Below, one piece after another: positions 44,359 to 50,839 of a stretch of 64,000 nt of DNA; the first letter of the stretch is position 1, and each line of letters begins with the position of its first letter. The notes under the pieces were generated by a model. That model ran no database searches. It had not been told where the DNA came from and was given only the letters and a program-made list of their open reading frames with translations. This DNA is from Nitrobacter sp. 62-23. GTDB lineage: Bacteria; Pseudomonadota; Alphaproteobacteria; Rhizobiales; Xanthobacteraceae. The stretch covers positions 1 through 64,000 of the forward strand of contig NZ_MKSM01000094.1 of assembly GCF_001897285.1 (NCBI RefSeq). Reading direction: 5' to 3'. The position numbers were made by a program, and so were the translations under genes.

Positions 44359-44687
44359 CTGGTTGTTGGAGTTGCCCAAGATGTTGTCTTTCCATGACCA
44401 TGGCGCGCCCGTCGCCCACGCGCAAGGCTGCGAGATAGACCCCGCAATCCGGGAAAAAGCGGGCGGTGGAGCTTGGGGCAACTCCACCGCCCTAGTCCTT
44501 CCGACGAAGGGGGGCTGTTTCCATCGGAAGGTGGCCAAGGGGGACGGGCTTTTCCGCCCGCCCCCCGGAAAGTGCCGTCAGCGGGGGCGACTGATGCCGG
44601 CGACGCTTTCCAACTCTTGCAGGGGTCCCATGTGCAGGGGTCCCATGTGGTCCTGATCAGGCATGACCTGATAGGAGAATCAGACCA
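44359..44687. other. 329-bp structured leader between degP and the response regulator gene
   Basis: Besides the degP terminator (44453-44492) it has an 8-bp inverted repeat (CCTTCCGA at 44497-44504 with TCGGAAGG at 44524-44531) and two copies of AGGGGTCCCATGTG around 44622-44650. The promoter of the regulator operon should lie here, but I cannot place it. Confidence 0.5.
44453..44492 (-). terminator. Intrinsic terminator of degP
   Basis: On the minus strand GGGCGGTGGAG pairs perfectly with CTCCACCGCCC around a 10-base loop, followed by GCTTTTTCCC. The 11-bp GC-rich stem and T-run are about 195 bp downstream of the degP stop and 95 bp before the response regulator start. Confidence 0.85.
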
Positions 44688-46262: not shown

Positions 46263-46432
46263 GCGGGATCTCCAGAAGCAGATTGATATGGCGCCGAAGG
46301 CAGGCACTTCATGTCCTGAAGATGAGGATTTGCGCCTTACCGCGCGCTGGCCGGGAGATTAATGTTTGGTAACATGACGGACGCCTCGTGCGGCTGTTTG
46401 GCGCATGACTGGTTTTCGAGCAGGGCTCATTC

Positions 46433-46460
46433 GAACAGACTTGTTCGAACAGACTCGTTC
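46433..46460. promoter_or_regulatory. Tandem GAAC-N6-GTTC dyads, possible operator
   Basis: Two dyads of 14 bp, differing at one base, abut exactly. They lie about 170 bp upstream of the degP start. Perfect symmetry and tandem placement suggest a regulator-binding site; the spacing (N6 inside a dyad) does not fit the alphaproteobacterial LexA box GTTC-N7-GTTC. Confidence 0.45.
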
Positions 46461-46490
46461 AATCGGATCGGGGCCGTACGGCCGTGCACC

Positions 46491-46563
46491 TGGCGGAGTC
46501 GATTTGACATCCACTACCCACTTCCGCGGTCTCGCAATGCCAATGTCAGATCCGCTCCACCAG
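46491..46563. repeat. Family 3 palindromic repeat, copy 3
   Basis: TGGCGGAGTCGATTTGACAT at the left pairs imperfectly with AATGTCAGATCCGCTCCACC at the right. The interior CCACTTCCGCGGTCTCGCAA corresponds to the CGCTAACTCGCGGTC of copy 2. Confidence 0.6.
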
Positions 46564-46635
46564 GAAACTGATAGTTGCTCCTGGTCCCGCGCCTCCAGCC
46601 TTCGCAAAAACACCGGCTGAAACCGGATGTGAATG

Positions 46636-47352
46636 TTAGAACTGGATCGAACCCAGTTGCTCCAGATCCTGCATGTTCAGGATTTTCAAGACACCACCGG
46701 ACAGATCGGCAATGGTCTGATCGCGGAAAGCACTGATCGTTCGGCTGACATGGACAGGCGTCAGACCCAGCGCGTCAGCAATATGCCGCTGACGCAGCGG
46801 AAACGAATAACTCTCATCGCGAATGACTTTTCTGTCCCCGATCCTCGCGATGAGATGTAGAAATAAATATGCGATGCGCTGCTCCGCCGAATATCGCCCC
46901 AAAATGGTGATTTTCTCGTCAAGCGCTTTCAAATCCGTCAAGCAATGCTTGGCCAGGGCAAGCATGGCCGCGGGATTTCCTTCAAGCCGTTTCCTGACCT
47001 CTTCGCCCTGCATCTTGCATACTTGAATTGTCGTAAGCGCTTCTGCGGCGAAGTGATTGTCCTCGTTAAATACCGAACCAACCGAAAGCAGGTCTCCGGG
47101 CAGCAGGAAATTCAATATCTGGCGGTGGCCGTTCGGAAGTTGGATGAAGCGAAACGCCCAGCCTTCGCAAAGAACCACAAGTTCAGGAGGCGCCGACCGG
47201 CGAAAAAGAAGCTGTCGCCCTGCCGGGATCACAGCATGACGTATCCACGACGGCTTTTCATGCGGACGTTCAGCTTCTGGATTTTGCTGGATCGCACGAC
47301 AAAAGCCGCTTTCCCCGTTTGGGCAACCGGCACAGGACCAAAGGGTCGTCAT
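46636..47352 (-). CDS. Crp/Fnr-family transcriptional regulator with N-terminal cysteine motif
   Basis: A 238-residue regulator: cyclic-nucleotide-like beta barrel (about 40-145), dimerisation helix, and a C-terminal winged helix with RHIADALGLTPVHVSRTISAF as recognition helix. N-terminal Cys7, Cys10 and Cys18 (CAGC then C), plus a Cys in TTIQVCKMQ, sit roughly where FNR places its four 4Fe-4S ligands, so oxygen or NO sensing is possible but not shown. ATG 47352 gives this motif at the very start. Codon use looks less GC-rich than in the flanking cyc and degP genes, suggesting acquisition. Confidence 0.85.
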   Translation of the reverse strand: MTTLWSCAGCPNGESGFCRAIQQNPEAERPHEKPSWIRHAVIPAGRQLLFRRSAPPELVVLCEGWAFRFIQLPNGHRQILNFLLPGDLLSVGSVFNEDNHFAAEALTTIQVCKMQGEEVRKRLEGNPAAMLALAKHCLTDLKALDEKITILGRYSAEQRIAYLFLHLIARIGDRKVIRDESYSFPLRQRHIADALGLTPVHVSRTISAFRDQTIADLSGGVLKILNMQDLEQLGSIQF

Positions 47353-47980
47353 AAGTAGCTCTAAAAAATTCAGATGATAGGATATCGACAGCGCGAACGC
47401 GCGCAGCAGCAACCACAACGGTAAAGGTGCTTGAATTCACGATAACCCGAGCACGCGTCTAAACTGAATTCCGACGGGTTCGGTCGTAATCCGCATTAAT
47501 GGGCACTGCAGATGGCGATGGCATTTTATTGAAAAACATTCCAAGCCTATGGAGAATCAAAACGCCCCTCATCCAATTTAGATTGTTGATGAGGACTGTC
47601 GACAGTATCAAATTACCTGCAATGCATGGTTGAAACCGAACACAACGTTGCAGGCGAGTGAGCCCGGCAAGAACGCGTGAGCAAACAGAAGCGAAGCGCT
47701 TGTGCTCCGTCGGCGACCTCGATTTCGAAGAAGCGAATTAACCTGCATCAATATTATTGCGCATCACCCGGCGGACAATTTTAAATTATCTGTACGTAGT
47801 TTTGCCTAGCCGAAGCTGAAATTCGCCCCGTGCGTACGCTTGAAGCGCTCGCAGGGAGAATGAAGCGAACTTCTGAATCACCAACACTGGCATCGTCGGC
47901 TGCCGTGAGCCGCCCCACGCATCACCGGATCGCGGGCGACGTAGTGCGGTCACCGGCGACGAAAGTATTATAAAAGAACA
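47353..47980. other. 628-bp AT-rich divergent intergenic region
   Basis: Divergent promoters for the Crp/Fnr gene and the chemoreceptor must lie here. The base composition is clearly lower in GC than the housekeeping genes around. I could not find a clean TTGAT-N4-ATCAA Fnr/FixK box. A possible 37-codon frame is at 47860-47973. Confidence 0.5.
47860..47973 (+). CDS. Possible 37-residue leader peptide
   Basis: ATG 47860 is preceded by AGGGAGA and followed by 37 codons ending in TAA at 47971-47973, seven bases before the chemoreceptor ATG. The predicted peptide is Ser/Thr/Arg-rich ([19 protein letters not shown]...). It is not a known family and could be chance; the good ribosome binding site and tight spacing are the only support. 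Confidence 0.25.
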
Positions 47981-49681
47981 ATGGAGTACGTTGTGTTTAT
48001 CCGCCGATCTGGAAACCATTCGAAGGCGCAGGCCGCTATTGCAAAATCCTTGGCCACCGACGCCATAACCGCGAAGGTGATGGTGGCGGATCGCGATCTG
48101 AACATTGTTTACATGAACAATGCGGTCGTCTCGCTTTTGAGGGAAGCCGAGACCGATATCAGGACGGAACTGCCAAATTTCAAAGTTGACGGCCTGATCG
48201 GCAGCAACATCGATATCTTTCACAAGAATCCTGCGCATCAGCGAAAATTGCTGGAAAACCTGACGTCACCTTATCACGCCATGGTTCAAATCGGCGGCCG
48301 GGTTTTCGATCTGTTGGCAACCCCGCTTATGGAGCGCGGCGAGCGTCGTGGAATCGTCGTGGAATGGGCCGACGCCGGCCAGCGGCTGCAAAACCTCGGC
48401 TACGCCGCGCAGTCCGACGCGATCAGTCGCGCCCAGGCCGTCATCGAATTCACGATGGATGGGAAGATCGTCACCGCGAACCAGAACTTCCTCGATGCGG
48501 TCGAGTACACGCTGTCCGACATCAAAGAACGGCACCACAGCATGTTCGTCGATCCGGCGGAGCGGGAGAGCGCAGCCTATCGCGAGTTCTGGTCGAATCT
48601 TAACCGCGGCGAATATCAGGCAGGCGAGTACAGGCGGATCGGAAAGGGTGCCAAGGAACTCTGGCTGCTCGCCTCCTACAACCCGGTGTTCGACGACAAG
48701 GGAAAGCCGCTCAAGGTCGTAAAACTCGCGACCGACGTCAGCGATCAGAAGCGGAAGTTCAGCGACCTCGCCGGACAAATCGATGCCATCAACAAATCGC
48801 AGGCGGTCATCGAGTTCAACATGGACGGCACGATCCTCACCGCCAATGCAAATTTCCTGAACGCGCTGGGCTATGTCCTGGGCGAGATCAGGGGAATGCA
48901 TCACAGCATGTTTGTCGAGCCGGCCGAGCGCGACAGTTCGGCCTATCGCGAATTCTGGGCAAACCTCAATCAGGGACGCTATCAGGCCGGAGAATTCAAA
49001 CGTATCGGCAAGGGAGGCCGGGAGGTTTATATCCAGGCCTCCTACAATCCCATTCTCGACTTGAGCGGCAAGCCCTTCAAGGTGGTGAAATATGCTGCCG
49101 ATGTCACGAAGCAGGTTCTTGTCCGGATGGGCAACGAACGCGTTCGCGGAATGATGGAGTCAGTTGCGGCTGGAGCCGAGGAGTTGAACGCTTCCGTGCG
49201 CGAGATTTCGGAAGCCATGAGCAAGTCGCGGGAGGGTGCCGTCGGCGCCGTCGAGCAAGTGGCCGCGGCGGATACGCAGGCAAAGCGGCTTACGGATGCC
49301 GCCCAGTCGATGAGCGGAATCATCGAACTGATCAACAACATCACGGGTCAGATCAATTTGCTGGCGCTGAACGCGACGATCGAATCGGCACGTGCCGGCG
49401 AAGCAGGCCGTGGATTTGCCGTGGTGGCTGCGGAAGTCAAAAATCTTGCCAATCAGGCCAAGCAGGCGACCGACAAGATCGGACACGAGATCGGCAGCCT
49501 CAACGATATTTCCGCGGACGTGGCGGGCGCGCTCAATACCATCAAGCTCGCGATCAACAGCGTCAGCGAATACGTGACATCGACAGCTGCCGCCATCGAG
49601 GAGCAGAGCACCGTGACAGGCGAGATGTCGGCCAGCATGCAGCGCGCTGCGGCAGAGGCTGCGGCGATCGCGGCCGCTTGA
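47981..49681 (+). CDS. Soluble methyl-accepting chemotaxis protein with three PAS domains
   Basis: A 566-residue receptor without transmembrane segments. PAS domains lie at about 25-130, 146-256 and 268-378; the second and third are near-duplicates, both with HHSMFV(D/E)PAERxS, AYREFW and YQAGE(Y/F)(R/K)RIGKG. The signalling domain (390-566) has the hairpin tip [21 protein letters not shown] and [13 protein letters not shown]. The layout recalls BdlA and Aer-type energy or redox receptors, so a bound heme or flavin is plausible but unproven. The signalling domain is short and lacks a C-terminal CheR tether. Confidence 0.9.
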
Positions 49682-49764
49682 GGTTTGATACTAGAAGATC
49701 GATCGCGTGCGTTGAGCTTTATGGCGCCTCGATGTGGATCGTGGCGTAGAAGGATCATTTTCCG

Positions 49765-50247
49765 ATGTCGAATGTCGTCGCATTCAGAACGAGCGGCCCT
49801 AAAGCGTTTTCAAGCGAAGTAGGCGCCGGTTCGCGTGAAGAAAACGCGTCAGAACAAAAATACAGAGATTTTCACCGTTTCCGTGAAACGGTGAAAATCT
49901 CAAAAAGCGAGGCTGCCGAACCTCGGTCGCACGCTCTATCTGTCGAAGGGGACTGTCGTGCCCCGCTCAAGCCGGAGCTTCTCAGGGAGAAATTCGCTGC
50001 GCTTCACGAAATAGCAATAGGCCGCCTGACTCATGCAATCGCGCTTCTTGAGGGCAGGCATTCCAGGATACGGGCGGATCTGACTTTAATCAGCAGCCCT
50101 TCCGTCAAGGCCGGACTCGAAGCCCAACTGCATGGCATTGAACACTGGCTTGCAGCGACCAAACGGCAAGTGCGCGAACTTTCCGCGCCCCTACCGGGGC
50201 ATTCCGAGTTGCGGTCGCAACAGCAGCAGACGGTCGCTGAACGATAA
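49765..50247 (+). CDS. Unknown 160-residue protein with a palindromic repeat encoded in frame
   Basis: Starts MSNVVAFRT. Residues about 12-46 are encoded by a family 1 repeat (49800-49902) read straight through: GPKAFSSEVGAGSREENA and then a hairpin-encoded HRFRETVKI. The rest (about 60-145) is helical, with HEIAIGRLTHAIALLEGRHSRI and a second helix ending in KRQVREL, plausibly a small coiled-coil protein. I recognise no family. It lies 83 bp after the chemoreceptor on the same strand and may be its partner. Confidence 0.55.
   Translation: MSNVVAFRTSGPKAFSSEVGAGSREENASEQKYRDFHRFRETVKISKSEAAEPRSHALSVEGDCRAPLKPELLREKFAALHEIAIGRLTHAIALLEGRHSRIRADLTLISSPSVKAGLEAQLHGIEHWLAATKRQVRELSAPLPGHSELRSQQQQTVAER
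49800..49902. repeat. Family 1 palindromic repeat, copy E, inside a coding frame
   Basis: GCGTTTTC (49804-49811) and GAAAACGC (49840-49847) bound the outer palindrome, followed by a hairpin GATTTTCACCGTTT / CGGTGAAAATC at about 49867-49899. The second hairpin differs in sequence from copies A and D but keeps the same position and symmetry. Confidence 0.8.
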
Positions 50248-50305
50248 CGCCATCGGTCCTGGCGTCCATCCCGGCCGCGGCGGCGCGAATGATGGCGGCG
50301 AAGCG

Positions 50306-50839
50306 CTAACCGGGTTCACCGGGGTCGGCCACCAGCTTCGCGAGTCTTGCCTCTTCTTCCTCGCTCAGTCGCGGCGGCGCATCCGCGGCCGCCTGCATCG
50401 CCTTCGAACGTCGTCGGCTGTATCCCCAGAGCGCGAGTCCGCCGCCCAGCAGAACCAGCGGGGTCAGCAGCCAGAGCGGCAACGTGCTCTTCTCGAAGGG
50501 CGGCTTCAGCAGCACGAAGTCGCCGTAACGGGCGACCAGAAAGTCCAACACCTGTTGATCGCTGTCGCCCTTTGCGATGCGCTCGCGCACCAGTAGACGG
50601 AGGTCGCGCGCCAGCGGCGCCGAGGAATCGTCGATCGACTGGTTCTGACACACCATGCAGCGCAATTCGCGCGACAGGTTGCGCGCGCGCGCTTCCTGGG
50701 CGGGGTTGGACATGATCTCGTCGGGCTGCACCGCATGCGCGGGAGCCGCCATCGTGAGCGCGAGGAGAAAAAGAACGCCAAATATGCGCGCGAACTTCTG
50801 ACCCGCGCTGAGTCGTCCCCGCAACGGCGTCTTTTGCAT
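50306..50839 (-). CDS. ccmH: Cytochrome c biogenesis protein CcmH (CycL)
   Basis: Thiol-reducing subunit of the system I heme lyase, delivering reduced apocytochrome c. The 177-residue product has a signal peptide (about 1-35), the LRCMVCQNQS motif with the redox CxxC pair, a periplasmic three-helix bundle, and a C-terminal membrane helix (LPLWLLTPLVLLGGGLALW). ATG 50839 is 16 bp after the ccmF stop. Last gene of ccmI-E-F-H. Confidence 0.94.
   Translation of the reverse strand: MQKTPLRGRLSAGQKFARIFGVLFLLALTMAAPAHAVQPDEIMSNPAQEARARNLSRELRCMVCQNQSIDDSSAPLARDLRLLVRERIAKGDSDQQVLDFLVARYGDFVLLKPPFEKSTLPLWLLTPLVLLGGGLALWGYSRRRSKAMQAAADAPPRLSEEEEARLAKLVADPGEPG

Follow-up and report, generated by a model that had tools for sequence, protein, structure and literature searches.

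A palindromic repeat of Nitrobacter found in frame within protein genes, and a copy lying inside a 160-codon orphan reading frame

The repeat copy, the reading frame around it and their genomic setting

The window analysed here is a stretch of 64,000 nt from Nitrobacter sp. 62-23, and within it a gap of 624 nt, flanked by the MCP and ccmH genes in convergent orientation, holds both a copy of a palindromic repeat and the open reading frame in which that copy lies (Table 1). The frame, taken from the list of open reading frames and its translation, comprises 160 codons on the plus strand and runs from ATG to TAA free of stops. A preliminary description had proposed that the repeat is read here as part of a protein, at about residues 12-46, and that copies at 1763, 11398, 13265 and 22768 are of the same family and lie between genes. 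The repeat is indeed in frame and stop-free, its open-frame part taking up codons 13-46, and the four other copies, which start near 1762, 11396, 13263 and 22768, were confirmed as family members situated between long ORFs.

Table 1. Features of the locus, in window positions
Feature	Position	Strand	Basis or remark
Lineage-specific segment: Crp-type regulator gene, PAS-PAS-MCP gene and 160-codon ORF	46406..50275		synteny; Pfam for the two genes
AAGGA, ribosome-binding-site-like, 10 nt 5' of the ATG	49750..49754	+	read from the sequence
Repeat-containing ORF, orphan	49765..50247	+	homologues of the part after the repeat sought, none credible
106-nt repeat copy, aligned in register to the family consensus CTATAG...CTCTAG	49799..49904	+	3' end degenerate here
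Repeat-derived segment, codons 13-46 (34 codons)	49801..49902	+	same frame as the four proven inserts
Repeat 5' hairpin	49804..49847	+	fold
Repeat 3' palindrome, 17 perfect pairs, 3-nt loop	49865..49901	+	fold
Part after the repeat (112 codons), with a modelled helical hairpin at residues 70-140	49909..50244	+	structure model

The window copy folds into two hairpins (z -7.1, with equal stability in 0 of 200 shuffles), and its membership of the family is far beyond chance, the next-best copy in its own genome being found by DNA search at E 3.7e-26. An Rfam search of the window repeat reached no gathering threshold.

It had also been suggested that the true start might lie downstream of the repeat, which would then be 5' untranslated sequence. 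For this frame we give such a reading very little probability, because no ATG follows the one at 49765, and the later in-frame starts are a GTG at 49891 (residue 43, inside the repeat hairpin), a GTG at residue 136, which is the first outside the repeat, and a TTG at residue 149. Judging from the translations, a start after the repeat is likely at several other copies that lie upstream of genes, and passages of PMC3733652 argue that many N-terminal REPs in ORFs are probably not coding.

Homologues of the window protein were sought for alignment; none was credible, so there was none to align. The last 112 residues had no credible homologue in 8 congeners (nine genomes searched; best match in G004, E 0.035), in 295 other genomes of the family (congeners included), in 396 other genomes of the order, or in plasmids or phages, and 0 of 236 pattern matches in genome contigs were confirmed. 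Two matches were considered and rejected as near chance level, namely that in G004 and one in G566 (E 3.1e-4 among 397 genomes), the latter with stops inside. Domain searches of the ORF gave one Pfam match far below cut-off and no NCBIfam match. The lack of homologues follows from the frame being part of a 3.87-kb segment, 46406-50275, that is lineage-specific at this site: it is absent from the syntenic position in all eight other Nitrobacter genomes, where 30 to 256 nt separate the counterpart of the sequence ending at 46405 from that of the sequence resuming at 50276-50337. Downstream of the MCP relatives in the family (19 loci and one G001 locus) nothing resembling the window ORF was found, the best tblastn match being antisense at E 0.029.

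Some further observations were made around the segment. Its GC content is 0.557 as against 0.634. At L050 (G001:C8:1-3300) the MCP relative looks interrupted by a transposase-like ORF, and in two congeners (L054 and L055) the spacer beside ccmH carries apparent fragments of repeats. At 44455-44615, on the minus strand, there is a match to the BjrC80 sRNA family of 136.9 bits.

The repeat family and its in-frame copies in four other proteins

The element is palindromic, 106 nt long and forms two hairpins, with tens of copies listed per genome. In its own genome at least 44 DNA matches are listed (40 of 204 candidates scored), and the peptide that it encodes gave at least 106 matches at E <= 0.01 among the best 150 of 178 candidates. 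Peptide matches are present in all nine Nitrobacter genomes searched, and in the wider family matches at E <= 1e-6 occur in 50 of 292 genomes and 16 of 47 genera.

Read by eye, the copies fall into two sub-types, which are distinguished by the 3' hairpin. In the consensus of the window sub-type (20 gap-free copies) just one of the six frames is free of stops; it is the frame used in the window ORF, and it reads IAFSSEVESGSREENASNQEARVFHRFHETVKDS. Many of the consensus loci had been picked by peptide, as had many of the loci behind a first count of 24 open frames among 34, which was set aside as biased and replaced by one restricted to copies picked by DNA alone (n=7). Five of these are open in the consensus frame; of the other two, one is open in a different frame alone and one has no open frame, so that the single open frame is not just a product of peptide picking.

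By hand count on the own-genome peptide matches listed, 37 of 106 are stop-free over at least 27 of the 34 residues, and open frames of at least 165 codons contain 8 of those 37. By eye, three of these eight frames place the repeat upstream of genes, one has it inside a gene, one is the window ORF and three look non-coding, one of these three having been codon-scored. Of forty loci chosen for frame length or similarity, four hold real internal cases (L145 and L146, which represent one event, L158 and L160); of the remainder some lie upstream of genes and the rest look non-coding. No new internal case emerged from six further own-genome frames or from seven in other genera. For the own-genome peptide matches the survey covers the best 150 of 178 candidates, and the PepSY_TM case described below came from a separate search.

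In total, a peptide of about 34 residues was found in frame in a PepSY_TM protein, a DUF2336 protein, a lytic transglycosylase and a protein of 412 amino acids, each of which has orthologues without it. The filled and empty sites are exact at the DNA level, with a deficit of precisely 102 nt, for the PepSY_TM protein and the transglycosylase, and rest on protein alignments for the other two.

The PepSY_TM case is confined to G008, where the peptide occupies residues 187-220 and PF03929 covers residues 19-439 of the filled protein. The protein of G007 matches residues 1-186 (95%) and 221-499 (93%) with abutting coordinates, and its DNA differs from that of G008 by one gap of 102 nt. Among 119 genomes searched, 10 besides G008 had a match, some of them from other genera, and in every one it is split around the peptide. 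The lytic transglycosylase (SLT plus SPOR domains by Pfam) carries the insert in G007 and G008, within what reads as the n-region of a likely signal peptide, and the exact 102-nt gap is seen in five species, two others being too divergent in this part.

The DUF2336 protein (PF10098) has the insert in G001, G006, G007 and G008 and lacks it in G000, G002, G003, G004 and G005. Clean alignment on both sides of the gap is obtained in G000 and G002 only, since in G003, G004 and G005 the C-terminal parts are divergent and the exact gap is not placeable. The G006 insert has an in-frame deletion of 4 codons, and between G008 and G007 the insert differs by 4 synonymous and 8 non-synonymous codon changes out of 35; the insert is therefore under no strong purifying selection, and the frame alone has been kept. 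For the 412-aa protein (G000:C98, L160/L177), in which no Pfam family was found, the insert is present in the source genome (G000) and in G002 and absent in seven. Among the inserts measured for stem length, the palindrome has mostly been lost while the frame was kept in the DUF2336 insert of G008 and the 412-aa protein of G000 (best stems of 8 and 9 pairs), and the DUF2336 insert of G001 retains 17 pairs.

The inserts in the four proteins share their frame and orientation and differ little in length, as would be expected of an element resembling the Rickettsia palindromic elements (RPEs). A different account of these data takes the peptide not for an inserted DNA repeat but for an ancestral protein motif that certain species have lost, and the four species sharing the DUF2336 insert would fit with it. 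We consider this scarcely credible, as the same DNA, hairpins included, is present in many copies outside genes, the proteins that carry the peptide are unrelated and have it at exact 102-nt gaps, and the PepSY_TM peptide is found in G008 and in none of the 10 other matching genomes, which include other genera. We conclude that the family very probably inserts in frame into protein genes in the manner of RPEs: in this soil bacterium a short self-pairing repeat has come to lie in a number of protein genes and left them intact. The likeness to Rickettsia proposed in the preliminary description thus stands for the family, on the four in-frame inserts and their orthologues without them; for the window ORF, which looks like a further case and has no homologue for comparison, it is about as likely as not.

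Coding potential of the window reading frame

The evidence that the 160-codon frame is itself a gene is divided. Its codon score is -0.077, and a lower value was obtained for 1 of 258 gene pieces, which were drawn from the training genes, and a higher one for 54 of the 232 ORFs that are antisense or shadow frames. The neighbouring Crp-type frame, which Pfam identifies as a gene, reaches no more than -0.051, and the codon test therefore has little power in this segment. When the repeat was kept and its flanks were shuffled, a frame of at least 160 codons through the repeat arose in 303 of 5000 cases, frames running off the 624-nt stretch included, and in a separate set of 5000 flank shuffles 198 gave any closed ORF of at least 160 codons. 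An open frame through the window repeat is thus not far beyond chance (4-6% of flank shuffles). Frames of equal or greater length, non-coding in appearance, also run through three further copies in the same genome, and on both these grounds the size of the ORF was rejected as proof of a gene.

These results favour an ordinary intergenic copy, perhaps serving as a 3'-end or terminator hairpin, with the 160-codon frame an untranslated chance ORF; the family might still insert into genes elsewhere. A gap between convergent genes is the usual place for a REP, the ORF is an orphan with a weak codon score, and the long frames through other copies have a non-coding appearance. On the minus strand the hairpin is followed by a T-run, and there are 2 terminator-like sites against 0.9 in shuffles. 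Against this reading, which we regard as a real possibility falling a little short of probable, stand the limited power of the codon test in a segment where a Crp-type gene scores so low, the ribosome-binding-site-like AAGGA placed 10 nt before the sole ATG of the frame, and a predicted structure. In a single-sequence model residues 70-140 form a helical hairpin at high confidence (block pLDDT 92-95), and the one antisense ORF that served as control had a mean pLDDT of 37.6. A PDB fold search with the single-sequence model returned generic helical pieces, with no match at E <= 0.001. Taking these lines together, we regard translation of the window ORF as evenly balanced. If it is translated, the product would be a small lineage-specific helical protein that starts at the ATG at 49765 and owes residues 13-46 to the repeat.

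It was also noted that the T-run follows the 49865-49901 palindrome on the minus strand, and this combination could therefore end transcripts coming from ccmH.

Relation to known elements and a proposed explanation

The best-known palindromic repeats read in frame are those of Rickettsia and Wolbachia, in which tolerance of them is attributable to reductive evolution. Among the features reported for these RPE and WPE elements are a length of about 100-150 bp, a palindromic structure, many copies, and the presence of some copies in frame within ORFs, to which they add a similar peptide (PMC10969869, PMC3767692, PMC4224334). The Nitrobacter element resembles them, as far as those accounts go, in being palindromic, multi-copy and partly in frame inside ORFs, with filled and empty sites. 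It differs in its host, a free-living nitrite oxidiser of another genus, in that a single frame is open and in just one of the sub-types, and in that copies outside genes are many and those proven to lie within genes few. The likeness is one of kind, by description, and no membership in the sequence families RPE-1 to RPE-10 is claimed.

Other palindromic repeats were compared as well. It is clear from passages of PMC3733652 that the GTAG/CGTC REPs of alphaproteobacteria and other bacteria share the palindromic structure and the occurrence of some copies within ORFs; they are mostly intergenic, measure 20-40 bp and have a tag at one end, unlike the Nitrobacter element with its 106 nt, two hairpins, ends CTATAG and CTCTAG and, by eye, no obvious tag. 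Nitrobacter receives no mention in the text of that paper. Br-REP1 and Br-REP2 of Bradyrhizobium, from the same bacterial family, are palindromic intergenic repeats (Hahn 2016, PMC5082802), the consensus sequences of which, where given, differ by eye from that of the Nitrobacter element, and the passages of PMC5082802 that describe them include no in-frame protein inserts. In the open-licence literature we found neither the element nor any in-frame inserts in Nitrobacter described. Classical MITEs generate a target-site duplication, and there is no clear one at the exact empty sites in the PepSY_TM and transglycosylase genes. The terminal inverted repeats of MITEs are given as 15-30 bp in a passage of PMC3733652, compared with only an imperfect 6-nt terminal match in the Nitrobacter element.

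On these comparisons the Nitrobacter family would join RPE, WPE and intragenic REPs as the same kind of event, which is well supported for the family and unproven for the window ORF. We propose that the element, a two-hairpin palindrome some 106 bp in length, would work like the Rickettsia palindromic elements; it is abundant across Nitrobacter and mobility is very probable. In a single orientation and frame its insertion would add 34 sense codons and no stop, and because of this, insertions in tolerant parts of proteins (loops, linkers and the n-regions of signal peptides) could survive and be translated. Selection would then act only to remove copies that break the frame. The kept frame suggests that the peptide is present in the four host proteins as synthesised, the filled and empty sites point to movement of the element, and selection probably does little beyond weeding out frame-breaking copies. 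As a whole, an RPE-like family together with a window ORF read through its repeat is the explanation that we consider rather probable.

More tentatively, Nitrobacter may harbour, beyond the intracellular Rickettsiales, a family of palindromes that code for protein and were active until recently, in which the open frame is kept as it permits harmless insertion, so that the same 34 residues are repeatedly added to unrelated proteins, and the orphan protein of the window would have been born with the segment or given it. Because a filled site can be set beside an empty one of about 95% identity in a sister species, the Nitrobacter set makes the neutrality of the insert, movement of the element and selection on the open frame testable.

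Copies of the repeat were in addition seen, on reading the translations, directly upstream of probable genes at L034, L020, L147, L148 and L150. These genes comprise those for a signal-peptide protein, a FecA-like receptor, sppA, an RND pump and folD, and the copies there are possibly 5' untranslated elements.
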